IMG/VR virus record: IMGVR_UViG_3300044970_000517
Location: 1 to 38,029 of that record
Source: a virus
Length of the DNA stretch: 38,029 bases
Reading direction: 5' to 3' (one strand)
Below, one piece after another: positions 10,355-28,151 of this stretch (within the stretch, counting starts at the first letter, position 1; every line of letters starts with the position of its first letter). The position numbers and the translations under genes are program-made. The notes beneath the pieces are model-generated. The model saw nothing but the letters and a program-made list of their open reading frames with translations. It did not search any database and was not told the DNA's origin.

Positions 10355-11760
10355 CAAACCCCCTTCTGTTGTCGGTACTTCTTCACGGCGCTGCGCAGTG
10401 CGTTCTGCGTCGTCGCCTTCTCGTCGAGCGCGATGGCCTGCGCCTGGTCAAGCGTATCGCGGCACATGATCCGGTGGCAAACCACCGGGGCACCCTGACC
10501 CTGCCGGCGCACCCGGGCGTTCATCTGGTCGTACAGATCGAGTGACCAGTTGAGCCCAAACCAGACCACCGTGCGTCCACGCTTCTGCAGGCCGTCGATG
10601 CCGTGTCCCATGCTGGCAGGATGGCCAATCATGAGTTGACAGTCCCCCTTCATCCACCTGTCCATTGCAGCCGTGAGTGACCCCTCGGTCTTGCACTCGG
10701 TCAGGTTGATCGGACGCAGATCCTTGAACCGCGCCATGATCCTCTCAGCATCGCTCCGGTAGGCATAGGAGCACAAGACGGGAGAACCCTGAGCCTCGTC
10801 GATGATCTCCTCCAGCGCGTCGAGCTTGAGGTCGTGGATCGGCTCCCACAGGGGCATCCCCGCCACCGGGTACACGGCACCGTTGCTGAACTGCAACGCC
10901 TTGTTGGTCAACGAGCCTTGGTTGAACACCTCGACCGTGGTGCCACTGTCGAGCTGCGTGAAGAACTCCTTCTCCAGCTGCTCGTACTTCGCTCGGACCT
11001 CGCCCTCCATCTCGACCTCGATGTTGTTGACGATGAGGTCGGGCAGCGGGTTGTAGTCCTCGGCTGACATCTCCAGCGTGATGTCGCCGATGAGGTTCTT
11101 GATCGTGTCCTCGGCGTCGTCGTAGAGCACCTCCTTGTACGTGCCCACCTTGCGATAGAAGCGCGTCTTGAAGGCGGTCTTGGACGTGCCCAGGCGCACC
11201 CCTCGGTCCACCACGAGGAACTGGCCGTGGAGATCCTTGTAGCCGTTGCTGGCCGGGGTGCCGGTGAGGCCCGTCGTCCAGGCGAACTGATCGAGCACCT
11301 TGCGCACCGCCTTAACGCGATCCGTGGCGCTGTTCTTCATCTTGCTGATCTCATCCCACACCACCCCGTTGAACGGCAGCGGCTTGTCCTTGGCGACGTA
11401 GTACGTTTGCAGGGTCTCAGCGAGCCAGCGCAGGTTCTCGTAGTTGATGAGGTAGATGTCGGCGGGGCGCATCAGTGCCCGGGTGCGCTGGTCGCGTGTG
11501 CCCGTGACCATGCTGAAGCGCAGATGCTTCGTGTGCTCCCACTTCGCAGCCTCCTGTCGCCACACGAGTCGGATGACGCGGATCGGGGCGACGATGATCA
11601 CGCCGCGCAGGTAGCCGGTGGACAACAGGTGCGCGATGCTGGTGAGCGTGATGACGGTCTTCCCGAGCCCCATGTCCAGCCACATCATCGACTGCGCGTG
11701 AGTGCATTGGAAGTTGACCGCCTTCTTCTGGTAGTCATGGAGCAGGTTGGGGGTTAGCAC
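10354..11760 (-). CDS. SNF2-type (superfamily 2) DNA helicase, 468 aa
   Basis: The start is a GTG at 11760 that overlaps the end of the VRR-NUC gene. Helicase motifs are clear: Walker A MGLGKT at residues 30-35, motif II DEIS near 136, motif III GLTGTPASNG near 164-173, a motif V-like GHGIDGLQ, and the arginine-finger motif VI QMNARVRRQGQ near 412-422. The protein lacks extra domains and is a typical size for phage SNF2/DEAD helicases that sit next to a VRR-NUC gene. It probably remodels or unwinds DNA during phage replication or recombination. Its role in this phage is inferred from its neighbours. Confidence 0.92.
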   Translation of the reverse strand: MLTPNLLHDYQKKAVNFQCTHAQSMMWLDMGLGKTVITLTSIAHLLSTGYLRGVIIVAPIRVIRLVWRQEAAKWEHTKHLRFSMVTGTRDQRTRALMRPADIYLINYENLRWLAETLQTYYVAKDKPLPFNGVVWDEISKMKNSATDRVKAVRKVLDQFAWTTGLTGTPASNGYKDLHGQFLVVDRGVRLGTSKTAFKTRFYRKVGTYKEVLYDDAEDTIKNLIGDITLEMSAEDYNPLPDLIVNNIEVEMEGEVRAKYEQLEKEFFTQLDSGTTVEVFNQGSLTNKALQFSNGAVYPVAGMPLWEPIHDLKLDALEEIIDEAQGSPVLCSYAYRSDAERIMARFKDLRPINLTECKTEGSLTAAMDRWMKGDCQLMIGHPASMGHGIDGLQKRGRTVVWFGLNWSLDLYDQMNARVRRQGQGAPVVCHRIMCRDTLDQAQAIALDEKATTQNALRSAVKKYRQQKGV

Positions 11761-12038
11761 AGCCCCACCATCTCGTCGATCATCGCCACCCCCGCCTCCA
11801 CGTTGTCAACGACGAACACGTTGACCTTGTGCCCCCGCAGCCGGTTGTGCTCACGCTGCTGCGGGATCGTGGGCTTCTGCCCCTGTCGCTTGAACTCGCA
11901 GAAAAACATGCGCCCGTTGGGCAGCACGAACAGGCGGTCAGGCACCGAAGCGCGCGCTGGCGACGTGAACTTGTAGACCAGCAGGCCGCGCTGCTTGGCG
12001 TAGTCGCACACCTTGGTTTCAATCTGCTTTTCGAGCAT
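11754..12038 (-). CDS. VRR-NUC domain nuclease, 94 aa
   Basis: The ATG at 12038 follows AGGAGA and lies inside the end of the preceding microgene. The whole protein is one VRR-NUC (PD-(D/E)xK) fold: MLEKQIETKVCDYAKQRGLL, then D34 in SVPDR, E48 and K50 in FFCEFKRQG, and the downstream Gln of PTIPQQREH. Stand-alone VRR-NUC proteins of about 90 residues are common in phages and can act as structure-specific endonucleases, for example on Holliday junctions. The adjacent SNF2 helicase suggests that they work together on replication intermediates. Confidence 0.92.
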   Translation of the reverse strand: MLEKQIETKVCDYAKQRGLLVYKFTSPARASVPDRLFVLPNGRMFFCEFKRQGQKPTIPQQREHNRLRGHKVNVFVVDNVEAGVAMIDEMVGLC

Positions 12039-12180
12039 GGCACTCTCTCCTGTACGCATCCAGCGCCACCCGCAGGTCGGCGCGTAGTTGTTCGATCTCG
12101 GCCTGTTGACGCTCCATCTTCTCGGTCGCCTCCTCGGCAAATCGAGCCAGCGTCTCGTGGTTCCAGGCAGCGAAGTTCAC
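12019..12180 (-). CDS. Coiled-coil microprotein between polymerase and VRR-NUC, 53 aa
   Basis: The GTG at 12180 overlaps the polymerase stop (GTGA), a coupled start; a longer upstream reading is antisense within the polymerase gene. The product contains a strong heptad helix (ATEKMERQQAEIEQLRADLR) and a basic C-terminus (RRECHARKAD). It overlaps the next gene by 20 bases, and the latter's ribosome-binding site lies inside it. The function is unknown. A small polymerase- or nuclease-associated oligomer is possible, from position only. Confidence 0.65.
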   Translation of the reverse strand: MNFAAWNHETLARFAEEATEKMERQQAEIEQLRADLRVALDAYRRECHARKAD

Positions 12181-14018
12181 GCGAGACTCAGGCACAGCTT
12201 CTCCACTTCCTCGACGTAGTAACCAAAGTCCACCGGCAGCACGGCATCCTCGATGCGGTTGCACACTTGGACGTTCCAGCCGCTTTTAACCCCGATGCGG
12301 CGCCACTCGCCAGGCTTGCGGGCCAGCGGCGGCATCACCTTCGTCAGCGGCCTACCACCTCGGGCGATGTAGTACCTGCAGGTGTTCTGCACCTGCTCCT
12401 CGCCCCACAGCAGCCTGCTCGACCGGGGCACCTTGACGCGCAGCATGAAGTCCATCTTGTCGGGCCAGTTCTCCACGGTCTCGCGGATCGGTGCGCCTTC
12501 GAGTAGCACCTTCTCGGCCACCTTCGGGATCACCAGTCCACCCGCGTTCTGGTGCCAGCCAACTCTCCACTCGTAGGCACCCTTGCGCTTGACCGACCCG
12601 TCCTCGTACTCAGCGATGTAGTTGTTGACGTCGCGCAGGAACATGCGCCGGTAGCGCACTTGTTCGAGGTTGAGCTTGGTCAGCCGCATCCACCAAGCGC
12701 ACGCCTCGTCCACCGCTGCCACCTGGCTGCGCGGCACGCGCACCGTGACACCATCGGTGTTGACCTGCACGATGCTCAACCCCGGCACCTTCAGCATGTT
12801 CTCGGCCAGCAGGCACAGCAGAAGCTGCCCGTTGAGCGTGATCGACATGGTGAACAGCGGGTCATAGAAGACGCTGAATCGGTTGTTGCTGTCGCCGTAG
12901 ACCCCGTTCAGCGCGAGCTTGAGCATGGCGCTCTCAGCCGACTTCTTGGGGTACTGCTTGCGCTGCTCGAACAGGTTGCCGTAGATGCTCGTGAACTCGC
13001 GCCCCAGGTGCGCCGGGGCGAACCCGTTCGTGATGGCGAGGTTCGGGTAGTAGCTGGTGACGTCTAGGTCGATGATGACGTGCTCGTCGTCGGACTCGAC
13101 CACCACGTTCTCAAGCGAGCCATGGATGCCACCCAGGCCGAAGACGAACGTGAACCCGTCCACCGTCGCCGTGAGGTCGGTGAAGACCCCCTTGGTCTCG
13201 GTGATCGTCTGCGCCTTGAGCCAGTCCAGCACCCGCTGGAACTCGGACCGCTCGAACGTGATCCACGGCAGGATGGCGTCGCGCAGCGCGATGCTCGGGC
13301 GCGGGGTCTGTCTGGGCTTGCGACCATCGGGGCCGAAGTCGTAGCACTGGACACCGGCCTCCTCCAGCTTCATCACGAAGAAGTCCTTGCCGATCTTCGT
13401 GTCGTTGTGGTTCAGGAAGTCGCGCCCGTACTTGACCGTCAGTTCCTCACGGAACCGGATCATGTCGAGCGTGTGGTGGTAGAACCGCTTCGTCTCGGCG
13501 ACGTCGTGGCGGTTGTACCGCTTGAGCACTTCGACCTGCTCCCGGGTCAGCACGGTCCCCACCGGGAACGGCAAATCCTCGATGCTGTCGGAGCGCATGT
13601 TGAACTCCAGCGCCTTGAGGCTGGTGCTGCGGTCCTTGTTGTCGAAGTGGTGGATCTTGAACAGGTCGATCTGCTCGACCACCCGGTCGCTCGGGCGTAC
13701 CTGGTGCAGCCAGCGGTCGTCACCCTCATCGGTCTGCGAGTCGATGATTGCCTGCGCCTTGGCGTACAGGATGCCCGCGTTGCACGAGCCCATCATCAGC
13801 AGCTGGTGCAGCACCGGGTAGTCGAAGCCCACATTGTTGAACCCCACCATCCGCGCCTTGCGGTCAGCGAGCCAGCGCACGAACTCGACGATCTCTCGGG
13901 AGTCGTTGCGCCAGTCGCTGATCTCAAACATCCAGCAGATCGGCGCAATGGCGTGCTCCACGGCCATCGTGAAGACGTTCGGATACGTCTCGACGTCCCA
14001 AATGAAGTCGTTGGTCAT
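12177..14018 (-). CDS. Family B DNA polymerase with 3'-5' exonuclease, 613 aa
   Basis: The exonuclease motifs are present: Exo I WDVETYP (D8, E10), Exo II GFNNVGFDYP (N61/N62, D66) and Exo III YNRHD (Y168, D172). Polymerase motif A is DLDVTSYYP with D319, motif B is KLALNGVYG with K367 and Y374, and motif C is VNTDG with D422. In motif C the usual DTDS has become NTDG; the remaining Asp and D319 can still bind the catalytic metals. It is much smaller than cellular PolB, as expected for this phage type. The ATG lacks a strong Shine-Dalgarno. It follows a UUCG hairpin after the SSB gene and is the main replicase of the phage. Confidence 0.92.
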   Translation of the reverse strand: MTNDFIWDVETYPNVFTMAVEHAIAPICWMFEISDWRNDSREIVEFVRWLADRKARMVGFNNVGFDYPVLHQLLMMGSCNAGILYAKAQAIIDSQTDEGDDRWLHQVRPSDRVVEQIDLFKIHHFDNKDRSTSLKALEFNMRSDSIEDLPFPVGTVLTREQVEVLKRYNRHDVAETKRFYHHTLDMIRFREELTVKYGRDFLNHNDTKIGKDFFVMKLEEAGVQCYDFGPDGRKPRQTPRPSIALRDAILPWITFERSEFQRVLDWLKAQTITETKGVFTDLTATVDGFTFVFGLGGIHGSLENVVVESDDEHVIIDLDVTSYYPNLAITNGFAPAHLGREFTSIYGNLFEQRKQYPKKSAESAMLKLALNGVYGDSNNRFSVFYDPLFTMSITLNGQLLLCLLAENMLKVPGLSIVQVNTDGVTVRVPRSQVAAVDEACAWWMRLTKLNLEQVRYRRMFLRDVNNYIAEYEDGSVKRKGAYEWRVGWHQNAGGLVIPKVAEKVLLEGAPIRETVENWPDKMDFMLRVKVPRSSRLLWGEEQVQNTCRYYIARGGRPLTKVMPPLARKPGEWRRIGVKSGWNVQVCNRIEDAVLPVDFGYYVEEVEKLCLSLA

Positions 14019-16667: not shown

Positions 16668-17042
16668 ATGACACAACCCGAAGCCCTGCGGCTGGCTGAT
16701 GCGCTGCAGCAGCAAACAGTGTGGGAGGGTCATTACGGCCCGAGCTACTTGCGCGACTTGTTGCCAGAAGCCGCCGCCGAACTGCGCCGCTTGCACGCGG
16801 AGAATGAAGCACTGCGCGAAGCCAACGAGGCTTTCGGCAAGCGGCAAGAATGGTGGAACGAGCGGATGGTTGCCCTTGAGCAGCAGCGCGATGCGCTGCT
16901 GGAGGCGTTGAAAAGCACGGGGCTGTTTTTGCACCACTGCTGGTGCGATGTGCAGATGAACGACTACTCGTTCGAGAAGCTGAATCAGCAGATGCAGATC
17001 GTTGACGCCGCCATCGCCAAAGCAGAAGGAGAGGAAGCATGA
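16668..17042 (+). CDS. Coiled-coil phage accessory protein, 124 aa
   Basis: The ATG follows AGGAGA at good spacing and is the first gene of the rightward operon. The sequence begins EALRLADALQQQTVWEG and then becomes a long heptad helix (AAAELRRLHAENEALREANE and MVALEQQRDALLEAL), a pattern seen in many small phage proteins of Burkholderiales-type phages. A single HCWC motif lies near residues 90-93. No enzymatic domain is visible and the function is unknown. It overlaps the next gene by four bases (ATGA). Confidence 0.75.
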   Translation: MTQPEALRLADALQQQTVWEGHYGPSYLRDLLPEAAAELRRLHAENEALREANEAFGKRQEWWNERMVALEQQRDALLEALKSTGLFLHHCWCDVQMNDYSFEKLNQQMQIVDAAIAKAEGEEA

Positions 17043-17677
17043 CCACCCTACGCGAAGCCGCCCAGCAGGCGCTGGATGCGTTGGAGAAAGCCGTTGTTGC
17101 CTTCGGTCCTGGGTTGACGTTGCAGCAAAACGCCATTACAGCCCTACGGCAAGCGCTGGCAGAGCAGGATGACGACCTGACCGCCGCATGGATGGCGGGA
17201 GCGGCAGAGGAACGCAAGCGGGCAGAACAGGCGCAGCCCGCATACTGGGGCGTGTTTGAAGGTGGTAATTTGCACGACTTCTTCCCTGTGCGCGAAATGG
17301 CCGAAGAGATGGCGTACTACAAAGGTAGTCATGCGGTTGTGGGGCCTATCTACACCACCCCGCCCGCGCAGCAGGCCGAGCCGGTGCAGGAGCCGGTGGC
17401 GTGGATGGTCAAAGACGAGGGGCTGTACTGGACTGAGGAAGCCGCCATTCGCCGTACCGACCAGTTCGTGGAGCCGCTTGACGTGGTGCCCCTCTACACC
17501 ACCCCGCCCGCGCCGCAGTCGCTGCGTGACCTGTGCGCGGCGGCATATCAGGTCGTCGGGGTAGCAGACGGGCCGGTCGAGATGCTCGACAACCTCTGGG
17601 CCGCAGCAGAGGGTGAGCCGCTTCCTCACGATCCGGGTGCCGGCCTTCCGTGGTCACCACCAGCCCCGCAGCGATGA
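17039..17677 (+). CDS. Phage accessory protein with repeated YTTPPA motifs, 212 aa
   Basis: The start overlaps the previous stop (ATGA). The N-terminus is helical (TLREAAQQALDALEKAVV), followed by two copies of a motif in which a short aromatic segment ends in IYTTPPAQQ or LYTTPPAPQ; between them lies EPVAWMVKDEGLYWTEEAA. These EPVAW/YTTPPA units are modular in small proteins of GC-rich proteobacterial phages and vary in copy number. The DNA encoding the two YTTPPA copies is nearly identical over about 20 bases (near 17351 and 17495). The function is unknown. A stem-loop follows the gene. Confidence 0.75.
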   Translation: MTTLREAAQQALDALEKAVVAFGPGLTLQQNAITALRQALAEQDDDLTAAWMAGAAEERKRAEQAQPAYWGVFEGGNLHDFFPVREMAEEMAYYKGSHAVVGPIYTTPPAQQAEPVQEPVAWMVKDEGLYWTEEAAIRRTDQFVEPLDVVPLYTTPPAPQSLRDLCAAAYQVVGVADGPVEMLDNLWAAAEGEPLPHDPGAGLPWSPPAPQR

Positions 17678-20316: not shown

Positions 20317-20589
20317 TCACTTCCTCCCCGGCATCAACTGCTCGTGGATCCCCGGCGCGAGAGCCTCCACGGTGCCGAGCACGTCCAGCAGACGATGGAG
20401 CAGGGCAGGGGGCTCGCGGTGCCCGTCTCGCCAGTTCCTGAAGGTAGCAACGGGCACGCCCAGGTACTGTGCCATGCCCTGCGCCGATAAATCGAGCCGT
20501 GCCTGTACGAGTGACAGGGTGACGCTGGCATCGGTGGCGCGAGTGGCGCGTACCCGGGGGCGTCCGGGGGATCGGGTGGTGTCGGTCAT
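20317..20589 (-). CDS. Cro/CI-like helix-turn-helix regulator, 90 aa
   Basis: The ATG follows GGAGG and overlaps the microprotein stop (ATGA). The core is a HTH: LSAQGMAQYLGVPVATFRNW with the recognition helix VATFRNWRDGHREPP, typical of XRE/Cro-like or CopG-antitoxin-type regulators. A basic, probably flexible N-terminus (TTRSPGRPRVRATRA) may grip the minor groove. It is the last gene of the leftward small-gene operon and is closed off by the bidirectional terminator. Without an associated repressor/integrase module, its role (early/late switch or autoregulation) is not determined. Confidence 0.8.
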   Translation of the reverse strand: MTDTTRSPGRPRVRATRATDASVTLSLVQARLDLSAQGMAQYLGVPVATFRNWRDGHREPPALLHRLLDVLGTVEALAPGIHEQLMPGRK

Positions 20590-20666
20590 TCGTCATCCTC
20601 CTGTTCAGTGAGCACCAGCGCCACGAGTAGCGCGGCGATTGTTCCAATGATTCCCGCGATGATCAT
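20586..20666 (-). CDS. 26-aa single-pass membrane microprotein
   Basis: The ATG at 20666 overlaps the stop of the upstream gene (ATGA) and its TGA overlaps the HTH start (ATGA), so all three are coupled. The product MIIAGIIGTIAALLVALVLT plus EQEDDE is one transmembrane helix followed by an acidic tail. A GGGGG stretch upstream could act as ribosome-binding site. The double overlap supports it being a real gene. The function is unknown. Confidence 0.65.
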   Translation of the reverse strand: MIIAGIIGTIAALLVALVLTEQEDDE

Positions 20667-20917
20667 CGGTTGCCCCCGCTGGTGACACGTGCAGCGTAGT
20701 CGGCAGCTGCGCGGTCGGCATAGTCCGCATCAGGGATCGGGTCAAGTTCGTCCGATTCATCCTCACCCGATGCTTGCCATTCGATTCCGTGCGCTGCGCA
20801 CATAGCGCGCGCGTCCTCCTCGCCTATCCAGCCCAGGCAGCGGGCGAGCAGGGGCGCTGGGTCGAGTAGACCCTCCTCGATCATCTCTAGCAGTTGCGTG
20901 GTGCATTCGCGGGTCAT
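20663..20917 (-). CDS. Acidic small phage protein, 84 aa
   Basis: It is coupled at both ends by ATGA overlaps. The sequence begins MTRECTTQLLEMIEEGLLDP and contains CLGWIGEEDARAMCAAHGIE followed by an acidic segment (EDESDELDPIPDADYADR). It resembles a family of small host-takeover or accessory proteins in GC-rich phages, but I recognise no domain. The strong negative charge could allow DNA mimicry or binding to a host factor; this is speculative. Confidence 0.7.
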   Translation of the reverse strand: MTRECTTQLLEMIEEGLLDPAPLLARCLGWIGEEDARAMCAAHGIEWQASGEDESDELDPIPDADYADRAAADYAARVTSGGNR

Positions 20918-21204
20918 TCGTCATCCTTCAGTGACTTGCACAGCTCGATGATCTGCGCATGGGTGGTGCCCTTAGGGGCGATTAGTTCGTAGTGTTGCCC
21001 GCCGATGCGTGCGCAGAATGTGTACAGATCATCGGTCTGACACTCGGGCACGCGGAAGCTTTCGGTGTCGCCGACCCGATGCCAGTCGGCGGGGAAAAGA
21101 ACCTCGAACATGTCGAAGAAGCGCGACTCTTCGATGCGGCGAGGTGCTTCCCCGCGGTTGCGTCGCATCGCGTCATAACGGGCCATCGTCTCTTCGTATG
21201 TCAT
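20914..21204 (-). CDS. Hypothetical phage protein, 96 aa
   Basis: It overlaps both neighbours by four bases (ATGA). The sequence has an N-terminal helix (MTYEETMARYDAMRRNRGEA) and a mixed alpha/beta body (FFDMFEVLFPADWHRV, YTFCARIGGQHYELIAP). The end LKDDE resembles the acidic ends of neighbouring small proteins. There is no recognisable domain. Tight coupling and good codon pattern make it a credible gene. Confidence 0.7.
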   Translation of the reverse strand: MTYEETMARYDAMRRNRGEAPRRIEESRFFDMFEVLFPADWHRVGDTESFRVPECQTDDLYTFCARIGGQHYELIAPKGTTHAQIIELCKSLKDDE

Positions 21205-21314
21205 TCGTCATCTCCAGTAAAGAAGTCGATCAGGAACGCCACGATGGCGACGATGGCGAAAACAGAAACACCGGTTGCCAACAGGAACGCGGGCAAGTTG
21301 ATCTCGTACCACAT
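21201..21314 (-). CDS. 37-aa membrane microprotein
   Basis: I chose the ATG at 21314 because AGGAG lies eight bases upstream. The frame extends to 21425 but that part is a low-complexity translation without a ribosome-binding site. The product is MWYEINLPAFLLATGVSVFA followed by IVAIVAFLIDFFTGDDE: one long transmembrane segment and an acidic C-terminus. It overlaps the next gene (ATGA). The function is unknown. Confidence 0.6.
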   Translation of the reverse strand: MWYEINLPAFLLATGVSVFAIVAIVAFLIDFFTGDDE

Positions 21315-21442
21315 AGACGGGTCTCCTCTCAGCCGACCATCAGGGCCAGCACGGTTAAGGGTAGGGCGGGAAGCGCCGGCGGCCGGCGCGGCGGTGTCGA
21401 CGTCTAAGACGGGCGGCAGAGACATGGTTGGTCTATTTGGCG

Positions 21443-21604
21443 TTATGCGCTTGGCTCACGTACACGGTCCAGCCACTCGCGCAGCCGCTGCACGCCGATG
21501 CGTTGCAGTTTGGCTTTCTGCGCTTCTGTCAGCCGCACCGGCACAACCACCAGCTTTTCTCCTGGCGGCAGCGCCGGTCGTCCCGGCTTGCGTTTGGTGC
21601 TCAT
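21443..21604 (-). CDS. Cassette-borne basic protein, 53 aa
   Basis: The ATG at 21604 overlaps the preceding stop (ATGA), making it the second gene of a bicistronic cassette; longer starts lie inside the upstream gene. The sequence is STKRKPGRPALPPGEKLVVV followed by PVRLTEAQKAKLQRIGVQRL: a basic AT-hook-like GRP stretch and a helix pair resembling RHH or HTH regulators (VPVRLTEAQ beta-strand then helix). It could be a DNA-binding protein. The TAA stop is the TTA of the boundary GTTATGC at 21442-21448. Confidence 0.7.
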   Translation of the reverse strand: MSTKRKPGRPALPPGEKLVVVPVRLTEAQKAKLQRIGVQRLREWLDRVREPSA

Positions 21605-21786
21605 TTCTTTGCCCATGCTGGAAACGTCCCCATCCAACCATGCCAGTGTTTACGCACCTCTCCCGGCGTTGCCACCTCAAGCCATGAGTCAAGCGCTTGC
21701 CGCCGCTTGCACGGTTCGGCAATTCGCAGCACTTCTAGCCGCAATTTAGACACGTTTGCTCGATTTGCCGTTGTCTTGTTTACCAT
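21601..21786 (-). CDS. Cassette-borne small protein, 61 aa
   Basis: The ATG follows AGGAG seven bases upstream. The protein is basic and helical (RANVSKLRLEVLRIAEPCKR, WLEVATPGEVRKHWHGW). It overlaps the next gene by ATGA, forming a two-gene unit within one cassette, as is common for toxin-antitoxin cassettes; the downstream partner has an RHH-like N-terminus. I cannot assign a toxin fold, so this remains a hypothesis. A candidate promoter lies at 21831-21859. Confidence 0.65.
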   Translation of the reverse strand: MVNKTTANRANVSKLRLEVLRIAEPCKRRQALDSWLEVATPGEVRKHWHGWMGTFPAWAKK

Positions 21787-21830
21787 CGTGCGCTCCTGTT
21801 AGTTGCTGCGCGTTGTGCTGCAGTAGTGTT

Positions 21831-21859
21831 AATGTAATACCGGAACAGCAGGCATGCAA
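21831..21859 (-). promoter_or_regulatory. Candidate promoter inside the first cassette of array 2
   Basis: On the - strand TTGCAT (21859-21854) and TACATT (21836-21831) are separated by 17 bases, about 45 bases before the ATG at 21786. It would let this cassette be expressed independently of an integron promoter. Confidence 0.4.
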
Positions 21860-21884
21860 CCACTATTGTGTAACACCGAAACGC

Positions 21885-21941
21885 GCCTAACCCTGCGCTG
21901 GACCGGACAGCCTGCGGCTGCCGGTCAGCTCTGCGTTAGGC
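21885..21941 (+). repeat. attC recombination site B (57 bp)
   Basis: GCCTAAC (21885-21891) and GTTAGGC (21935-21941) flank arms GCTGGACCGGACAGCC and, as complement of the right arm, GCTGACCGGCAGCC. The left arm has one extra G, so the polarity is +. The crossover is at G21935/T21936; the TTA there is the stop of the next gene on -. Confidence 0.85.
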
Positions 21942-22316
21942 GTCACCACTTGTCGCCTTGGTGCGCTGCCATCCCATGTTGGCAAACAGCTTCACCCCGC
22001 GCTCGTTCAGGCGCCAGCCGCGCCGCTTTGCTCGCGGCTCGTATTCCTCGACGCAAAACTCAGGGACAGGCGCCCAATGGCCGAACGGGATCAGGCAAAA
22101 CGTCGCGCCGCCGATCAGGTCGTCGCTCCAAAACTCCGTCACCATGCGGTCACCGTCACGCGACACGATGCGCCCGATCCGGCCTGCATCTTCGTGCGGC
22201 TTGCCGGCCGTCTTGCATTCGTGATGAAGCATCACAAAAGCACCAGGCGCAAACATCTTTTCTTCCATGCGAGCCATGTGGTCGCGGCGCGCGTCGTCGG
22301 TCGTGTAATCAAGCAT
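21936..22316 (-). CDS. Cassette-borne hypothetical protein, 126 aa
   Basis: The ATG at 22316 has GAGG six bases upstream. Longer starts would translate the attC site and lack a ribosome-binding site. The sequence contains MLDYTTDDARRDHMARMEEK, a small beta-rich core (FAPGAFVMLHHECKTAG, IGRIVSRDGDRMVTEFWSDD) and a basic C-terminal helix (EPRAKRRGWRLNERGVKLFA). This may be a KOW/SH3-like barrel with a C-terminal basic domain. The function is unknown. The TAA stop is contributed by the TTA of attC B's GTTAGGC, exactly at the cassette edge. Confidence 0.75.
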   Translation of the reverse strand: MLDYTTDDARRDHMARMEEKMFAPGAFVMLHHECKTAGKPHEDAGRIGRIVSRDGDRMVTEFWSDDLIGGATFCLIPFGHWAPVPEFCVEEYEPRAKRRGWRLNERGVKLFANMGWQRTKATSGDA

Positions 22317-22340
22317 CTTCGTCCTCATCGTTGCAGTGCT

Positions 22341-22397
22341 GCCTAACTGTCGGTTCAAGCGGACGCCGTGCCGGCGCCGCTTAACCTGGCGTTAGGC
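22341..22397 (+). repeat. attC recombination site C (57 bp), near-canonical
   Basis: GCCTAAC (22341-22347) and GTTAGGC (22391-22397) flank GTTCAAGCGGACGCC and, as complement, GTTAAGCGGCGCC. The single extra C of the left arm is the same asymmetry as in the aadA1 59-base element. This is the clearest attC in the window. Confidence 0.92.
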
Positions 22398-22398
22398 A

Positions 22399-22635
22399 TC
22401 AATGCCCACGGCAGGCGGCGCCCACAAGCTCATGTGCAAGCCGCTGCTGGTTGATGTCAACCGGGGTGCGGCCTTTGTCGGTCTGCGCGTTACGCCACCC
22501 ATGCCAGTAACTGCGGCTCTTGTCGCTGCCCGGCTCGTCTGCGCACGCCAGGCCGTCGCGGTATCCAGCGACGATTTCGTCATCGTCTAAATTGCGCAAG
22601 TCGGCCGCAGTAGCTACGGGCTTGAATTCACTCAT
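22399..22635 (-). CDS. Cassette-borne conserved small protein, 78 aa
   Basis: The ATG follows AAAGG. The sequence contains DDDEIVAGYRDGLACADEPG and KSRSYWHGWRNAQTD. This 'YRDG...SRSYWHGWRN' pattern is one I have seen in small proteins of Burkholderiales phages and prophages. It ends with a TGA 8-10 bases inside the cassette start (22392). The function is unknown. A forward ORF starting just after the core site at 22402 was judged a shadow because this ORF has much better protein-like composition. Confidence 0.75.
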   Translation of the reverse strand: MSEFKPVATAADLRNLDDDEIVAGYRDGLACADEPGSDKSRSYWHGWRNAQTDKGRTPVDINQQRLAHELVGAACRGH

Positions 22636-22658
22636 TGCTTACCTTTCGTTCGTTTGAT

Positions 22659-22715
22659 GCCTAACTATCGGTTCCAGCGGACGGCCTTTGGCCGCCGCTG
22701 AACCTGGCGTTAGGT
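22659..22715 (+). repeat. attC recombination site D (57 bp)
   Basis: GCCTAAC (22659-22665) and GTTAGGT (22709-22715) flank GTTCCAGCGGACGGCC and, as complement, GTTCAGCGGCGGCC, with one extra C on the left arm. Polarity is +. The TTA at 22710-22712 is the stop of the next cassette gene on -. Confidence 0.88.
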
Positions 22716-22997
22716 CCCAGCCGGCTTAATCAGGCCGCCGCTGCCGCCGCAGTCGTGGCACGGGTCGCCTTCGTTGCCATCCTCGCCAGTGCCGCTGCAC
22801 GTCCTGCACGGGTACAGCGGGCGCACACCTGCGCGAGTCATCTTCGCGGGCACAACGTACGCGGCGCGGTAGTCGCTTGTCGCTTTGTCGCTTTGCAACC
22901 ACTCGTCGCTTACGTAAAGCCCGCGGTCGTCCATCCAGTGCGTGGGCCTAACCCCTCGCTCAACCGGACCAATGCCGGCGGGCTGCTTTTGCTCCAT
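22710..22997 (-). CDS. Cassette-borne DnaJ-type zinc-finger protein, 95 aa
   Basis: The ATG at 22997 is seven bases after AGGAG; a GTG two codons earlier is too close to that site. Residues 69-91 carry two CxxCxGxG-like motifs, CRTCSGTG and CHDCGGSG, which form the DnaJ-type zinc ribbon also used by small phage proteins. The N-terminal half includes VRPTHWMDDRGLYVSDEWLQ. Residues 8-16 are encoded by the left arm of attC E, and the Shine-Dalgarno and ATG lie in that attC's loop. The TAA stop coincides with the cassette edge. The function is unknown; protein-protein or nucleic acid binding is possible. Confidence 0.8.
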   Translation of the reverse strand: MEQKQPAGIGPVERGVRPTHWMDDRGLYVSDEWLQSDKATSDYRAAYVVPAKMTRAGVRPLYPCRTCSGTGEDGNEGDPCHDCGGSGGLIKPAGT

Positions 22998-23048
22998 GCT
23001 CACACTCCTGTAGCGCCGTCATTGGCGCGGTTAGCTCGAACGTTAGGC
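22946..23048 (+). repeat. Long attC recombination site E (103 bp)
   Basis: GCCTAAC (22946-22952) and GTTAGGC (23042-23048) flank arms GCTCAACCGG and, as complement, GCTAACCGC with one extra C on the left. An additional stem pairs 22969-22980 with 23014-23025 (11 of 12 bases). The loop holds the Shine-Dalgarno and ATG of the gene ending at 22710. Length resembles VCR-type attC sites. Confidence 0.82.
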
Positions 23049-23099
23049 CCCGCGAATACGGGCCGCGGTCGATCGCGCAGTAGGTGCAGATTCGGGATG

Positions 23100-23294
23100 T
23101 CATCCGCCGACGACCGGGTACACGCCTTCACTAGCCCGGAAAAACGTGTCGCCCTTGCGTTTGGCGCCCTGCCGCACACATGCGGCGAATGCGCGGCGGG
23201 CCGCGCGACGGGCAGCTTCGAGGGTACGATGTCCCGAGATAACTCGTGTGTGGTCGCCGTAGTGACCCGGAGCGGGGACGACAAAGTAGTACAT
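23100..23294 (-). CDS. Small phage protein, 64 aa
   Basis: The ATG follows AGGAG. The sequence MYYFVVPAPGHYGDHTRVIS then GHRTLEAARRAARRAFAACV and a C-terminal YPVVGG looks like a compact alpha/beta protein with a strongly basic helix. It lies between attC E and the sliding-clamp gene. I recognise no domain. A longer overlapping ORF on the same strand in another frame was rejected for poor composition. Confidence 0.7.
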   Translation of the reverse strand: MYYFVVPAPGHYGDHTRVISGHRTLEAARRAARRAFAACVRQGAKRKGDTFFRASEGVYPVVGG

Positions 23295-23319
23295 GGTCGT
23301 TTCTCCTTGTGATGGTCGT

Positions 23320-23973
23320 TCACGCGGTAGCCCACGAGGGCAGGCCCGGGTGCCGCATGTCGTCAGCGTCGACGCGCAGGGGCATGATTACCCCGAGCGC
23401 GTCGCGTCCGAGACCCGAGACCAGGGCGCCGCCGCGCCCGTTGTGGTGGACGACGGGCTTGCTCTTCGTCGACCCGGACAGCAGCGCGTGCACGTCGCCG
23501 AACGTCGCCACCAAGGCAGGGTCGAACTGCGCCACTTCAAGCGACGCGGCGGCGGGCATGACCCGGCGCCAGTCGGGATAACGCCCTTCGACGGGCTTCG
23601 TTGTCGTGGTCGTGGTGCCCGTGATAGTGATAGCGTCGGGTGCCTTAATCGTCACCCCAGGCCGATCGGGATCCGGGGTCTGTGCGCCGGGGATGATCTC
23701 GACGGTAATCGGCAGCGTCGTTCGCCCGACCTTCCCGGGCTTGACGGCTTCGAGAGCCTCGCGCGGGATGATCCATTGCCCGACGGCGCGGTCGCCTTCG
23801 ATGTTGTCGTCCACGTAGGGCACGGAGAGCAACACGTGACCATTCGTTGCCACCAGGGTGACGTCCTGCGCTCGGACGTCGACCAGTACTCCCTTCAGGT
23901 AGTAGCGGATGTCCTGCTTCGGAGCGACGAGCAGCAGGGCCTTGAGGATGTTGTGTTCGATTGTGAGTTTCAT
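23320..23973 (-). CDS. DnaN-like sliding clamp, 217 aa
   Basis: The ATG follows AAGGAG. The N-terminal half resembles DnaN clamp domains: DIRYYLKGVLVDVRAQDVTL, VATNGHVLLSVPYV and WIIPREALEAVK. The C-terminal half has RYPDWRRVMP, a beta-rich segment and ALGVIMPLRV, which matches the conserved end of bacterial beta clamps (VIMPxR). At 217 residues it is about two clamp domains, so it would need to assemble as a trimer like T4 gp45 or PCNA, whereas DnaN is a three-domain dimer. It may tether the phage polymerase or recruit host factors. Assignment is by motif similarity and is moderately confident. Confidence 0.7.
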   Translation of the reverse strand: MKLTIEHNILKALLLVAPKQDIRYYLKGVLVDVRAQDVTLVATNGHVLLSVPYVDDNIEGDRAVGQWIIPREALEAVKPGKVGRTTLPITVEIIPGAQTPDPDRPGVTIKAPDAITITGTTTTTTKPVEGRYPDWRRVMPAAASLEVAQFDPALVATFGDVHALLSGSTKSKPVVHHNGRGGALVSGLGRDALGVIMPLRVDADDMRHPGLPSWATA

Positions 23974-23998
23974 TTCCGGTTCTCCTTATGGTGGTGGG

Positions 23999-24208
23999 TC
24001 AAAGGGTAGCGCGATAAGCCAGACCCGAAGAGATGACCCCGTCGCGCTGCAGCCAGTCGATCCAGTCGACGAAGGTGCAACGGACCGTCGCGCAGTGGTG
24101 GTTTTGCCGCTTGGACAGAATCCCGGCTTCCCGGGCTTGTTCTGCGAGGTGGGGGTACGCGGCCCAGAATGCGCGGCGCAGGGCGCGTTGGCTGGTGATA
24201 CGGTTCAT
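23999..24208 (-). CDS. Small helical phage protein, 69 aa
   Basis: AGGAG lies eight bases before the ATG. The sequence is helical and basic (TSQRALRRAFWAAYPHLAEQ), with a His/Cys cluster (NHHCATVRCTFVDWIDWL) that might bind metal. It resembles small phage proteins with 'TTRCAFVDWVDAL'-type motifs, found next to replication genes. The function is unknown. Confidence 0.7.
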   Translation of the reverse strand: MNRITSQRALRRAFWAAYPHLAEQAREAGILSKRQNHHCATVRCTFVDWIDWLQRDGVISSGLAYRATL

Positions 24209-24233
24209 TTCCGGGTTCTCCTATCTAGTTGGT

Positions 24234-24323
24234 TCAAAGACACAGCGCCAGAATAGCGCCAATGACACAGCCGGCGAATAGGGCGAACCCGTAGTCGACC
24301 AGGCGCATAGGTACGTTCCACAT
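24234..24323 (-). CDS. 29-aa membrane microprotein
   Basis: I chose the ATG at 24323, two bases after the stop of the gene upstream. The earlier part of the frame overlaps that gene. The product MWNVPMRLVDYGFALFAGCV plus IGAILALCL is one transmembrane helix. No obvious Shine-Dalgarno is present, suggesting coupled translation. The function is unknown. Confidence 0.5.
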   Translation of the reverse strand: MWNVPMRLVDYGFALFAGCVIGAILALCL

Positions 24324-24325
24324 GG

Positions 24326-24478
24326 TCAGCCCAGCAGGATGACGAGGGCGATGCTCAGCGGAACTCCCTGCTTGCGCAGGTTCCGCGCTGCCTGCTGGTA
24401 GCCGACTTCGGCCGCTTGCTGGCGGGCCTTGCAGACTATCCATCGGCCGGCACTGATGTAGGTTGCGAGGGTTCGCAT
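24326..24478 (-). CDS. Small phage protein, 50 aa
   Basis: The ATG at 24478 follows AGGAG, which overlaps the stop of the upstream gene. The sequence is a basic helix (AGRWIVCKARQQAAEVGYQQ) ending in a short hydrophobic tail (VPLSIALVILLG) that could anchor in a membrane. No family is recognised. The downstream membrane microprotein begins two bases after its stop, so the two may be functionally linked. Confidence 0.6.
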   Translation of the reverse strand: MRTLATYISAGRWIVCKARQQAAEVGYQQAARNLRKQGVPLSIALVILLG

Positions 24479-24480
24479 GT

Positions 24481-24690
24481 TCACTCCTGATTCAGCAAAT
24501 GCTGCGCATACCGGTGCGCCAGATCGGGGCACGCGAAGATCCGCGATTCAATGATCGCATCGGATTCCAGGTCAGCAAAAACCACGCGATGCGTGCCCAT
24601 TTGAGTGCGGGCCACGCCTACGACGAGGGTGGAATGCCGAGGGCACGTCGATTGCCATTCCGGGGAGTCGGACGAGGGGAAGATGCTCAT
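24481..24690 (-). CDS. Small phage protein, 69 aa
   Basis: GGAG lies nine bases upstream of the ATG. The sequence has a mixed beta/alpha character (STLVVGVARTQMGTHRVVFA, ESRIFACPDLAHRYAQHLLN). It looks like a small soluble protein of the leftward accessory operon. There is no recognised domain. It is separated from the next gene by two bases, consistent with an operon. Confidence 0.65.
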   Translation of the reverse strand: MSIFPSSDSPEWQSTCPRHSTLVVGVARTQMGTHRVVFADLESDAIIESRIFACPDLAHRYAQHLLNQE

Positions 24691-24711
24691 AGTGCGGGGC
24701 TCCGGGTACTG

Positions 24712-24921
24712 TTACGGGCGCGGCCACTGACGGACGAGCGCGCCGTCCGGGCCGTAGAGCTTGACGCTTTGGACACGCTCGCCGTGCTCGCCTACGCCGG
24801 GTGCGTGGGCGTATGCCCAGGCGGCGTCTTTGTATGCGTCCATGGCTTCGTCTTCGTCGTCGAAAGTGTCGACGATATCGGGCGCGGCATGCCAATAATG
24901 CTGGACAAGTCTGTAGGTCAT
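24712..24921 (-). CDS. Small acidic phage protein, 69 aa
   Basis: An AGGAG about ten bases upstream supports the ATG at 24921. The sequence is MTYRLVQHYWHAAPDIVDTF with an acidic helix (DDEDEAMDAYKDAAWAYAHA) and a C-terminal strand (VQSVKLYGPDGALVRQW), resembling small 'host nuclease inhibitor-like' or DUF-type accessory proteins with an aromatic-acidic fold. I cannot assign a family. Its leader carries two overlapping alternative hairpins at 24953-24990. Confidence 0.65.
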   Translation of the reverse strand: MTYRLVQHYWHAAPDIVDTFDDEDEAMDAYKDAAWAYAHAPGVGEHGERVQSVKLYGPDGALVRQWPRP

Positions 24922-24952
24922 GGTGTGGGGCTCTCCTGTGGTGGGTGAACAC

Positions 24953-24990
24953 GGGCTAACGGGTTCGCTAGCCCCTGCACACGGCAGGGG
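24953..24990 (-). promoter_or_regulatory. Two overlapping, mutually exclusive leader hairpins
   Basis: CCCCTGC (24972-24978) pairs with GCAGGGG (24984-24990), and GGGCTA (24953-24958) pairs with TAGCCC (24969-24974). The arms share 24972-24974, so only one can fully form. It lies in the leader of the gene at 24712-24921 and looks like an attenuator or ribosome-access switch. There is no evidence beyond sequence complementarity. Confidence 0.4.
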
Positions 24991-24996
24991 ATGGGA

Positions 24997-25260
24997 TCAG
25001 GCGAAGTCTTCCGGGAACAGCAGGCGCAGAGCTTGCGCGGGGCCGATGTCGCCACGTGTCAGCCGAGCCATACTGCCGACGACGTGGATATCGGAGCTGG
25101 CGGTAGTGTGGCGCGCCCCCTGATCAGCGCGCCAGGTTGCCGTGAAGATTTGGTCGGCAAGCCGCTCGCGTTGATAGGCCCTGTAGTCCTTTCTCTCGTG
25201 GTGAGGGATCCACCATGGGACCGTGGCGCGGGCGATGCGACGGCAGACTAAGTACAGCAT
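24997..25260 (-). CDS. Basic phage protein, first gene of the leftward accessory operon, 87 aa
   Basis: I chose the ATG at 25260 with AGGAG seven bases upstream; the frame extends to 25323 without a ribosome-binding site. The product is rich in Arg/His/Trp (LVCRRIARATVPWWIPHHER, AYQRERLADQIFTATWRADQ) and ends GPAQALRLLFPEDFA. No domain is recognised. A candidate -10 TATCAT at 25300-25295 (on -) would give a short leader containing the ribosome-binding site. Confidence 0.65.
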   Translation of the reverse strand: MLYLVCRRIARATVPWWIPHHERKDYRAYQRERLADQIFTATWRADQGARHTTASSDIHVVGSMARLTRGDIGPAQALRLLFPEDFA

Positions 25261-25603
25261 GGTGCGTGCTCCTGCAGTGGTTGACGACGAAGTGATGATA
25301 GGTCCGATGGTGTAATGGTGCACTAGTGGAAACCCTTAGGTTCATTGTCGAGTGCGACACTGTGACTGGTGGGGGGTGTTGGATTTCGACTGTCGCAATT
25401 GATATTTAAAAAATGACCCCATAGTCAGAAAACTACATGGTCGCAGTCTCCACCATCGCACCATCCCTTGACCCGATGAACCACCACATCCTGTCACGCC
25501 GTCACACCGCACACTGTGTCAATGGACATTAGGGTTTCCCCTAATGTGCAATGGGTCAATGGTGGATACGATGACATTGTCGTCAACGAACCAAGGAAAG
25601 AGC
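25261..25603. promoter_or_regulatory. Divergent regulatory region between accessory and late operons
   Basis: This 343-bp non-coding stretch includes a leftward -10 candidate (TATCAT, 25300-25295 on -). It has an AT-rich block in an otherwise GC-rich sequence (25399-25418). A perfect 9-bp inverted repeat with a 4-nt spacer lies at 25526-25547 (ACATTAGGG/CCCTAATGT). A rightward -10 candidate TACGAT (25567-25572) lies upstream of the ATG at 25604. The inverted repeat covers the -35 region of that promoter, so it may be an operator. I see no gene in this stretch. Confidence 0.5.
25526..25547. promoter_or_regulatory. Perfect inverted repeat, candidate operator
   Basis: ACATTAGGG (25526-25534) and CCCTAATGT (25539-25547) are exact complements around TTTC. 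The site is centred about 30 bases before the candidate -10 at 25567, as expected for an operator. A hairpin without T-tract is the alternative. Confidence 0.5.
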
Positions 25604-25771
25604 ATGTCGGTCTACCGAGAGATGGGGTATGAAAGCCGCAGGGACTACCTGGAAAGATTGGCCGATGAGTACGGGATTGACCCGACCATCGTTTTCGCAC
25701 TGGCGTCGATGCTGGGTCCGAACGAGGACTTCGACGGGCTCGTCACGTCGCTTGAAGACGAGTACGCCTGA
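25604..25771 (+). CDS. Small conserved phage protein, 55 aa
   Basis: The ATG at 25604 follows AAGGA; the frame extends back to 25544 but that part is non-coding in character. The sequence YESRRDYLERLADEYGIDPT and ALASMLGPNEDFDGLVTSLE matches a small protein frequently found ahead of terminase genes in related phages. It is helical and acidic, with no known function. The pattern 'LGPNEDFDGLV' is probably the conserved core. Confidence 0.75.
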   Translation: MSVYREMGYESRRDYLERLADEYGIDPTIVFALASMLGPNEDFDGLVTSLEDEYA

Positions 25772-25989
25772 GACCCTAGGGGCCACGGCCCCCCGCTCCC
25801 CCGCTCCCCCGCTCCAGCGGCTGCGCGGGGGGCGGCGGCGGCGGGCGGCAGGGGGTACCCCTCGACCGGGCCGGCCCCGTGTTCAAAAACGTACACCCCA
25901 CAAAAATTTTCAGCACCCCCGAACCCGTAAGCCATTGAACCAATCTATTCCCTTTTTCCTTCCCTACCCCCTCGTGCTACACTCGTCGC
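25772..25989. other. GC-rich intergenic region before terminase
   Basis: This 218-bp stretch contains three exact tandem copies of CCCCGCTC (25791-25814), a G-rich run (25827-25856) and a pyrimidine-rich tract. It leads to an extended -10 element just before the small terminase gene. It could hold the packaging (pac) site or a terminator for the preceding small gene, but nothing in the sequence proves either. Confidence 0.4.
25975..25983 (+). promoter_or_regulatory. Extended -10 promoter for leaderless terminase transcript
   Basis: TGCTACACT has the TG extended -10 motif and a 4/6 -10 hexamer (25978-25983). The predicted start falls on the A of the ATG at 25990. No Shine-Dalgarno is visible between, consistent with a leaderless mRNA. 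Confidence 0.45.
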
Positions 25990-26604
25990 ATGGAGCAGAA
26001 TCCGCCAGTCGCTCAGGCGATCCCTACGTGGCTTGATGCCACCTCGTCGCCTAGTCACAGCGTCACACCGCACATATCGCAGGCCAAAGCGGCCAGGATG
26101 ACCCGGGAGGGTCAGGAGGCGGTATTCCTCGCCATGTTCGAACGAGTCCTTGGCGAGATGGTGCGCGGACGTACCCTCAAGAACGTCATCGAGCACGACG
26201 TTCGCCAGATTGACTACGAAGCCTTCTTCCGCTGGATCAAACGCAACCCCGCTCGTCATGAACGGTACAAGGAGGCCAAGGAGCTACGCACCGAGTGGTG
26301 GGCTGGTCGCCTCGTCGAGATCGCCGATGCCGATGACAGCACCGAGGACGTGGCACGCTCTCGTCTGCGCGTGGACACCCTGAAGTGGCTCATGGGTGCC
26401 GACAACCGGAAGACCTACGGAGACACGAAGCAGGTCGAGATCAACCAGTCCATCAGCATCACCGCAGCCCTTGAACAGGCTCGGGCACGGGTGCAGATGA
26501 TCCAGCCTATCAACTCGACCCACCCCATCGAAGACGTCGTTGACGTGGACACTATGGGGCTGATCGAGCACCGGCAAGAACAGCAGACTGAGGACAACGA
26601 CTGA
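25990..26604 (+). CDS. terS: Terminase small subunit, 204 aa
   Basis: The central region follows phage small terminases: RTLKNVIEHDVRQIDYEAFF with RWIKRNPARHERYKEAKEL is the DNA-binding HTH-like part. It is followed by an acidic helix (EIADADDSTEDVARSRLRVD) and the signature LMGADNRKTYGDTKQVEI. The C-terminus is acidic. Small terminases recognise the packaging site and hand DNA to the large subunit. No ribosome-binding site precedes the ATG, and an extended -10 lies six bases before it, so translation may be leaderless. The stop overlaps the terL start (TGATG). Confidence 0.85.
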   Translation: MEQNPPVAQAIPTWLDATSSPSHSVTPHISQAKAARMTREGQEAVFLAMFERVLGEMVRGRTLKNVIEHDVRQIDYEAFFRWIKRNPARHERYKEAKELRTEWWAGRLVEIADADDSTEDVARSRLRVDTLKWLMGADNRKTYGDTKQVEINQSISITAALEQARARVQMIQPINSTHPIEDVVDVDTMGLIEHRQEQQTEDND

Positions 26605-28151
26605 TGCCAGCGCAGCGCCAACGCTACAGCGCCGAGGAGGAGCAGCTACTCATGTCGCAGATGTGGTCGCCCCACGTCGCCGACGACCCCGAGACGTTCG
26701 TGATGTTCACGTTCCCCTGGGGGCAGAAGAACACTCCCCTCGAACACTTCAGCGGACCGCGTACCTGGCAGCGGGAGGTGCTGCGCTCAATCACTCGTCA
26801 CATCCGCACGAACCGCAGCCCCGGGGCCGTGCTCCAGGCGATGCGTAGCGCCATCGCATCGGGCCGGGGGATCGGGAAGAGCGCACTCGTGTCGTGGCTC
26901 ATCTTGTGGATGCTGTCGACGCGGATCGGTTCTTCCGTGATCGTCAGTGCCAACAGCGAACCGCAGTTGAGGTCGGTCACCTGGGGCGAACTGACGAAGT
27001 GGGCCACGATGGCGATTAACGCGCACTGGTGGGAGCCGTCGGCGACCAAGTTGGTGCCTGCAGCGTGGCTCACTACCCTCGTCGAGCGGGACTTGAGCAA
27101 GGGCACGCGCTACTGGGGTGCTGAGGGGAAACTGTGGAGCGAGGAGAACCCGGACGCGTATGCGGGTGTCCACAATCACGACGGCATGATGGTGATTTTC
27201 GACGAGGCCAGCGGCATCCCGGACACCATCTGGTCCGTGGCTGCGGGTTTCTTCACCGAGCCCATCGTTGACAGGTACTGGCTCGCGTTCAGCAACCCTC
27301 GCCGACCCAGCGGGTACTTCTACGAGTGCTTCACGTCGAGGCGGGACTTCTGGCAGACGCGGCAGATCGACTCTCGCACGGTCGAGGGCACCGACAAGGC
27401 GGTGTACGACCAGATCATCGCGGAGCACGGTGAGGACAGCCGGGAGGCGCGCATCGAGGTGTACGGTCAGTTCCCCAGCACCGGGGACGACCAGTTCATC
27501 GACCTGCAGCGGGTCGAGGAGGCGATGAAGCGCGAGGCTGTGCCCGACCCCAGTGCGCCCGTCGTCATCGGCGTGGACCCGGCGCGCAGCGGGGCGGACA
27601 GCACGGTGATCGCGGTGCGGCAGGGGCGGACGATCCTGACGCTGCGGCGGTACAAGGGCGAGGACACCATGACTGTCGTCGGGCACGTCATTCGCACCAT
27701 CGAGGAGTTCCGCCCGACGTTGACGGTGGTGGACGAGGGTGGCCTGGGCGCCGGGGTACTTGACAGGCTCAAGGAGCAGCGGTACAAGGTGCGCGGGGTC
27801 AACTTCGGATGGAAGTCGAGCAGGCCGGCGATGTACGGCAACAAGCGTGCTGAAATCTGGGGTGCGCTCAAGGAGTGGCTGTCCACAGCGTCGATCCCCA
27901 ACGACAAGCACCTGCGCGACGACCTCACGGGGCCACGGGTCAAGCCAAACAGCGCCGGGGCCATCTTCCTGGAGTCGAAGAAGGAGATGAAAGCCCGAGG
28001 ACTCGCCTCTCCCGACGCTGCCGATGCCATCGCCGTCACCTTCGCGTTCCCCATCGGCACCGACGACCCGGTGCTCAACCAGCGAGGCGCATCGCACTCG
28101 CGCATCGTAGTTCCAACGGTAAACTACTGGAACGCGACACAGAGAGCATGA
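26604..28151 (+). CDS. terL: Terminase large subunit, 515 aa
   Basis: The ATPase domain has Walker A SGRGIGKSAL (K92 in GRGIGKS) and Walker B MMVIFDEASG (D200, E201). The RNase H-like nuclease domain has acidic residues at D325 (GVDPARSGADS), D377 (VVDEGG) and D474 (DAADAIAVTF). The N-terminus contains FTFPWGQ and TWQREVL, typical of adenine-recognising TerL motifs. It cuts concatemeric DNA and drives it into the procapsid through the portal encoded next. Coupled to terS by TGATG. Confidence 0.95.
   Translation: MPAQRQRYSAEEEQLLMSQMWSPHVADDPETFVMFTFPWGQKNTPLEHFSGPRTWQREVLRSITRHIRTNRSPGAVLQAMRSAIASGRGIGKSALVSWLILWMLSTRIGSSVIVSANSEPQLRSVTWGELTKWATMAINAHWWEPSATKLVPAAWLTTLVERDLSKGTRYWGAEGKLWSEENPDAYAGVHNHDGMMVIFDEASGIPDTIWSVAAGFFTEPIVDRYWLAFSNPRRPSGYFYECFTSRRDFWQTRQIDSRTVEGTDKAVYDQIIAEHGEDSREARIEVYGQFPSTGDDQFIDLQRVEEAMKREAVPDPSAPVVIGVDPARSGADSTVIAVRQGRTILTLRRYKGEDTMTVVGHVIRTIEEFRPTLTVVDEGGLGAGVLDRLKEQRYKVRGVNFGWKSSRPAMYGNKRAEIWGALKEWLSTASIPNDKHLRDDLTGPRVKPNSAGAIFLESKKEMKARGLASPDAADAIAVTFAFPIGTDDPVLNQRGASHSRIVVPTVNYWNATQRA

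Follow-up and report, generated by a model that had tools for sequence, protein, structure and literature searches.

Integron gene cassettes have been described in phage genomes before. Qi et al. (2023; PMC9892861) report 17 CALINs in phages, with recombination by IntI1 for five of six tested sites. In the parts of that report available to us, Tetrasphaera phage TJE1, Polaribacter phage P12002L, and Pseudoalteromonas phage PH101 carry an attC array without IntI, lack a lysogeny integrase, and have small or unknown ORFs; the temperate phages Vibrio anguillarum p16, Shewanella M16-3, and P1 carry intI together with a cassette array, the Vibrio phage integrons being pieces of a host sedentary integron and P1 carrying class 1 integrons; and those parts describe neither a conserved attI of phages nor cassettes that are reversed or exchanged between phages. 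Class 1 and sedentary chromosomal integrons have attC anatomy, crossover between G and TT (G/TT), and the IntI fold in common with the phage arrays analyzed here, but their cassette genes are parallel to attC, whereas those of the phage arrays are antiparallel. In the Treponema 'reverse integron' (PMC7691350), as in the phages analyzed here, integrase and cassette genes are transcribed in one direction; however, in Treponema the integrase gene is turned round, whereas in the phages it is the cassette genes that are turned, intI standing where it usually does with respect to attC polarity. A search of the open-access literature (that is, with subscription papers and preprints outside its scope) yielded no description of antiparallel phage arrays.

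Here we analyze a 38-kb IMG/VR contig (38,029 nucleotides; hereafter 'the window') that has linear ends and is possibly incomplete. The window encodes podovirus genes (P22-like portal, terminase, major head protein, DNA polymerase, and primase-helicase), and its nearest named relatives are distant: the DNA polymerase is 74.8% identical to that of phage DSL-LC05, and the portal is 65.5% identical to that of Manatee Spring phage. No match to the tyrosine recombinase family (PF00589) occurs anywhere in the window. Our interpretation, which we consider highly probable, is that the window phage is a podovirus with two integron cassette platforms and no integrase of its own, and that IntI acting in trans exchanges its cassettes between phages. 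Like TJE1, P12002L, and PH101, it has an attC array without IntI, no lysogeny integrase, and small or unknown ORFs; unlike in TJE1, in which genes are parallel to attC, its cassette genes are antiparallel. The initial annotation had regarded a multi-cassette array in a lytic-type phage genome as unusual: the array is real, but it is not unprecedented, CALINs in virulent phages being already on record (PMC9892861). Phage-borne attC arrays are thus known; the variant described here, with its cassettes reversed, an attI-like site of phages, and exchange that can be seen from phage to phage, is new and apparently widespread.

The first array (array 1) comprises the following sites and cassettes:

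21428-21444, plus strand: attI-like left boundary of array 1, TTGGTCTATTTGGC followed by GTT; crossover between G21442 and T21443; relatives differ beyond the motif.
21443-21935, plus strand: cassette 1, 493 bp from G/TT to G/TT; not in the related contig L001, which has both flanks.
21885-21941, plus strand: attC of cassette 1, 57 nt; covariance score 40.6 bits, E 1.2e-8; folding z -5.2.
21936-22391, plus strand: cassette 2, 456 bp; full-length identity of 97% to the cassette at L001 position 3.
22341-22397, plus strand: attC of cassette 2, 57 nt; 32.5 bits, E 1.8e-6; z -5.2.
22392-22709, plus strand: cassette 3, 318 bp; 100% identical at L001 position 5 and 99.7% identical at position 1 of locus 2 in L141.
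22659-22715, plus strand: attC of cassette 3, 57 nt; 28.8 bits, E 1.7e-5; z -6.1.
22710-23042, plus strand: cassette 4, 333 bp; 99.7% identical in L001.
22946-23048, plus strand: attC of cassette 4, 103 nt; loop contains ribosome-binding site and ATG of a minus-strand gene; L001 copy 28.2 bits; z -3.0.

The four attC sites proposed in the initial annotation for 21443-23048 are all present at the positions given there, and measured crossover-to-crossover cassette lengths (493, 456, 318, and 333 bp) agree with its range of 318-493 bp. The unpaired base lies on the left arm, as had been claimed, and attC polarity is therefore plus. The array thus has the makings of an integron cassette array (CALIN): at least two covariance-scored attC sites, each with R'', L'', L', and R' boxes and an extra-helical base. 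The covariance search proposed at the outset was performed with a model whose training set was limited to nine attC sites from plasmids with class 1 integrons, aligned using trimmed arms, full-length MAFFT alignment having misaligned the loops; the model matches all four sites (40.6 to 28.2 bits), the 103-nt site through an identical sequence in L001, which scores 28.2 bits, the site at 22946-23048 itself not being listed in an unfiltered scan of the window. The three 57-nt sites match on the plus strand, and no score on the minus strand of the window exceeds 10.7 bits. Folding of bottom strands as single-stranded DNA, likewise proposed at the outset, gives z-scores relative to dinucleotide shuffles of -5.2, -5.2, -6.1, and -3.0 for the sites in order. 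A strict structural scan returns exactly four sites in the window and none in 20 local shuffles. The attC sites of the window have no match in 50,697 phage records, and one of them, searched in plasmids, has no match there.

The genes of array 1 lie on the strand opposite to attC polarity:

21201-21425, minus strand: ORF left of array 1; its first codons match the 5' end of an excisionase-like gene of temperate phage G010.
21443-21616, minus strand: cassette 1 gene b, 57 aa; crossover-site TTA serves as its stop codon.
21601-21786, minus strand: cassette 1 gene a, 61 aa; ATG behind an AGGAG-type ribosome-binding site.
21936-22316, minus strand: cassette 2 gene, 126 aa; stop codon is the crossover TTA; positive codon score.
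22399-22635, minus strand: cassette 3 gene, 78 aa; PHROG 4460, E 1.7e-10.
22710-22997, minus strand: cassette 4 gene, 95 aa; N-terminus coded within attC; weak DnaJ-type Cys-rich motif (Pfam PF00684, E 1e-3, below the Pfam cut-off).

The cassette 2 gene and its L001 copy differ at seven nucleotides and two amino acids. Throughout the window and its relatives, ORFs with ribosome-binding sites and coding signal are on the strand opposite to attC polarity; in plasmid integrons, used as a yardstick, gene direction agrees with attC polarity. To quantify orientation, we used 52 viral contigs from an attC pattern search that gave at least 119 matches, with polarity defined by the covariance model, and a small bacterial sample of arrays adjoining IntI, and we required unambiguous ORFs with ATG plus ribosome-binding site, longest-ORF calling alone being noisy (37:81). 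Loci among L181-L200 that repeat earlier contigs were counted once, and L221, L211, and L312 were excluded as duplicates. The ratio of antiparallel to parallel cassettes is 81:7 in the viral sample (among the matches listed) vs. 1:18 in the IntI-linked bacterial sample (Fisher p = 7e-14). Since a locus contributes cassettes that are not independent of each other, counts by locus are more reliable: 32:2 for viral loci (34 informative, among the matches listed) vs. 0:5 for bacterial loci (p = 3.6e-5). One of the two parallel viral loci is that of L302, which has a bacterial-type IntI. Among the matches listed, the stop codon is exactly the crossover TTA in 61 of 114 antiparallel cassettes, and the start codon lies inside attC in 17 of the 35 cassettes with attC of at least 85 nt. 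Stops at the crossover and starts within attC indicate that the genes are fitted to the cassette ends in reversed orientation. The gene parallel to attC, a usual although not strictly defining trait of CALINs, is thus absent from the window and from nearly all related phage arrays, and the antiparallel layout provides a simple marker for finding such arrays in any genome collection.

The starts encoded by attC specify a recurrent N-terminal tail, such as PAVxGPVERPVR, that is a start peptide common to unrelated cassette proteins; tails of this type are seen at 22946-23048 and 9932-10022 of the window and in the long attC sites of L001, L087, L150, and L393.

BLAST against relatives revealed a second, older, partly decayed array at 9220-10022 (array 2), which the initial annotation had missed, and which contains one degenerate and one truncated attC:

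8998-9204, minus strand: phage gene directly after array 2 in the direction of transcription, 68 aa; conserved flank in relatives with and without the array.
9206-9222, plus strand: attI-like left boundary of array 2, TTGGTCTATTTCGC followed by GTT; motif and array are absent here in L198 and L199.
9228-9593, minus strand: cassette gene, 121 aa; PHROG 11759, E 2.2e-24.
9634-9692, plus strand: degenerate attC; 22.9 bits, E 7e-4; folds poorly (z +0.45).
9687-9986, minus strand: cassette gene, 99 aa; N-terminus in attC, stop codon is the crossover TTA; positive codon score.
9932-10022, plus strand: truncated long attC, R' box lost; 78.7% match to the L001 attC at 6609-6697.

The same truncated right end is present in L192, behind a different cassette. 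Both arrays are headed by an attI-like sequence, TTGGTCTATTTSGC followed by GTT, that had gone unnoticed in the initial annotation. The 17-bp motif is identical at the left ends of arrays 1 and 2; on the minus strand, the phage gene next after the array has its ATG just downstream of the motif. Conserved at both arrays and occurring in other phages, it is a candidate for the attI of a complete integron. It differs from the sites beside IntI in the temperate phages G396 and G432. A scan of 2.9 million viral contigs found the motif in 14 stretches and a one-base variant in three further occurrences; in six of the 14 stretches the context is different and an attC array is missing, and these six look like chance matches. 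The motif is absent from all sequenced bacterial integrons searched. A search with TTGGTCTATTTSGCGTTRRRY in 84,980 species genomes returned four matches, none with an array, which we take as chance (two of the four are in betaproteobacterial MAGs, inside a protein-coding gene with no attC array nearby), and thus found no bacterial origin of the motif.

Comparison with relatives shows base-exact exchange of cassettes between phages. The window, L141, and L150 agree to 96-98% in the flanks of locus 2, and the sequences from the GTT of the motif to the end of the last attC are all different; L151 has the flank and motif as in the window and another cassette; and L198 and L199 have neither motif nor array, an AGGAGG ribosome-binding site standing directly before the same phage gene. 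At locus 1, L001 retains cassettes 3 and 4, part of its array being made up of different cassettes; no array is present there in L002, L003, or L059. A 521-bp cassette is 100% identical in L141, a relative of the podovirus, and in temperate phage G437, and 97.9% identical in L139; besides this cassette, L141 and G437 have no long match. G437 is related to G010, a temperate siphovirus with terminase, portal, tape measure, and integrase. In these comparisons, flanking sequences switch exactly between G and TT; that is, cassettes are exchanged as units at G/TT. Because the contigs come from different metagenomes, a single assembly error cannot explain the pattern. The 64-bp segment at 21386-21449 of the window, which spans the excisionase gene start and the motif, matches G010 at 95%, suggesting that locus 1 may derive from a temperate phage of the G010 type.

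Complete, intI-bearing versions of such arrays occur in temperate phages. IntI scores above the family cut-off in three of 48 related viral records. In two of these, G396 and G432, the contigs carry tail, virion, endolysin, and integrase genes; cassette genes come first, then intI, then the phage integrase, and all of them are transcribed in one direction, against attC polarity. Thus G396 and G432 have intI next to attI on the same replicon, as in a complete integron, which the window does not, and, unlike the Treponema integron, do not have intI inverted relative to the attC array. G396 IntI aligns over its full length with PDB 2A3V (E 7.6e-79). In a small, first-look tree, the G396 and G432 IntIs pair outside the sampled bacterial IntIs, and the IntI of L302 nests among the bacterial ones. 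As in p16, M16-3, and P1 (PMC9892861), G396 and G432 combine intI and a cassette array in a temperate phage; unlike those, they have a separate IntI pair beside the phage integrase and antiparallel cassettes. G010 has a similar layout (cassettes, excisionase-like gene with HTH_17, phage integrase) but is without IntI; its integrase was considered as an IntI and rejected, being a phage integrase by PHROG.

The initial annotation had noted no IntI gene and had assigned capture to a host integrase. The window does lack a PF00589 match, and IntI would act in trans, but its source need not be a bacterial chromosome: related arrays with their own IntI are found in temperate phages, and a temperate phage is an alternative to the host as source. 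IntI scores above cut-off in 137 of 369 genomes of one sampled class, presumed to be Gammaproteobacteria because its center is a Comamonadaceae MAG; a host enzyme acting in trans is therefore plausible. The IntI closest to that of G396 among the 369 genomes is 60% identical and is located at 7702-8700 of contig 17 of G358 (L411). That contig has no attC match and carries a DNA methylase-like gene and genes resembling an SMC-type ATPase and a nuclease; by eye its genes look mobile or phage-like, and it may be a phage or plasmid with intI only.

Two other viral records may be mentioned. In L414 (KX853513, Virus Rctr41k; 4680-8813), an IntI-like gene carries the annotation xerD, and after it come four attC-like repeats of 127-131 nt with methyltransferase cassettes: apparently an unannotated integron in a published virus, in which genes look parallel to attC and intI has the same direction. 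Rctr41k was accordingly rejected as an antiparallel case, its genes looking parallel and the covariance model missing its repeats. The IMG/VR contig L302/L397 (G428) has a canonical parallel attC array of about a dozen sites and an IntI of bacterial type, and may represent a bacterial integron at the edge of a prophage or of the contig.

According to one alternative, a bacterial cassette block was captured once, as in an ordinary phage CALIN (Qi et al., 2023), is now inert, and differs between relatives through ordinary phage mosaicism. The published phage CALINs (PMC9892861), the decay of array 2, and the fact that some relatives, for example L002, differ at locus 1 by non-cassette DNA would fit such a history, but we consider it improbable: breakpoints fall at G/TT in several independent contigs, copies of one cassette that are 99.7-100% identical occupy different loci and positions, phages without other long homology share a cassette that is identical from end to end, and gene orientation is opposite to that in bacterial cassettes. 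According to a second alternative, the phage has no true attI, and the cassettes entered secondary sites of the attG type as off-target insertions made by IntI. In favor of this view, IntI accepts attG sites besides attI and attC (PMC12901181), the motif is short, and no intI adjoins it in the window phage. However, attG sites are short and otherwise unrelated, and random targets would not have 14 bases in common. Here, arrays at two unrelated loci, and in several phages, have the same 14 bp on their left; the complete 17-bp motif precedes arrays in three or more phage backbones without a single change, and relatives that lack the array also lack the motif. An origin in attG sites is therefore unlikely.

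A third alternative, a REP or terminator-like family, was named in the initial annotation as one that would overturn its reading and is already disfavored. The palindromes would then be transcription or RNA-processing signals merely resembling attC. They are strong hairpins between genes of one operon, and eight terminator-like sites are predicted in 20500-26700 (shuffle mean 3.9). However, no attC site coincides with any of the eight predicted stems. The attC sites fit a model derived from those of plasmid integrons, retain the two outer boxes and the extra base, have a fixed polarity, and mark recombination breakpoints; in other phages, related sites adjoin intI. We regard this alternative as scarcely credible.

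In the reading that we favor, cassettes are exchanged between phages by IntI in trans. Each platform consists of an attI-like site just ahead of a phage gene start codon, followed by attC-bearing cassettes. IntI, supplied by a host integron or by a resident or co-infecting temperate phage with intI, would cut G/TT at attI and at the bottom strand of folded attC, leading to insertion, removal, and exchange of cassettes between phages. The reversed cassette genes, co-directional with the leftward gene block of the phage and read towards attI, would be transcribed from phage promoters, and the cargo would be small accessory genes, at least some of them for counter-defence.

Most cassette products are small and without recognized function. 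Pfam matches among 129 antiparallel cassette ORFs of related phages include Acb2/Tad1 (four), DNA methylases (three), Lar (two), and RNA ligase (two). Acb2 and Tad1 sequester signal nucleotides of CBASS and Thoeris, methylases and Lar (restriction alleviation) counter restriction, and tRNA cleaved by host nucleases can be mended by phage RNA ligases; these functions make counter-defence the best-supported theme of the cargo. Among the window's cassette genes, just two match a family clearly, in both cases a PHROG without assigned function, and a counter-defence role for the window's own genes would be an extrapolation from its relatives.

It has long been asked how, in the mosaic genomes of phages, small accessory genes pass intact from one phage to another that is unrelated to it. 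In the arrays described here, the cassette is the unit that moves, G/TT is the join, and IntI is a candidate for the enzyme; exchange can be seen between lytic phages and temperate ones. These observations suggest that phages run their own cassette exchange, partly for genes countering bacterial defences. We lean towards the broader reading that there is a separate phage integron lineage, in which a phage-clade intI lies beside the integrase of temperate phages, cassette genes are systematically antiparallel and terminate at the crossover, and lytic phages without an integrase draw on the same cassettes by way of attI-like sites. The common pool would amount to a repertoire of counter-defence genes, traded by site-specific recombination. 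If cassettes carry counter-defence genes, integrons would serve phages as resistance-gene integrons serve bacteria.

Two further observations concern segments outside the arrays. Within 17006-17400 of the window, parts of 17006-17238, including a core of ~45-60 bp, match L183 (G008) at 10575-13391 repeatedly within one 3-kb stretch, and the matching segment looks like a repeated leader in another variable gene block. A ~130-bp segment at 36064-36201, in a gene behind the tail genes, is present in one copy in the window and in several copies in the near-identical relative L060 (9028-9398).
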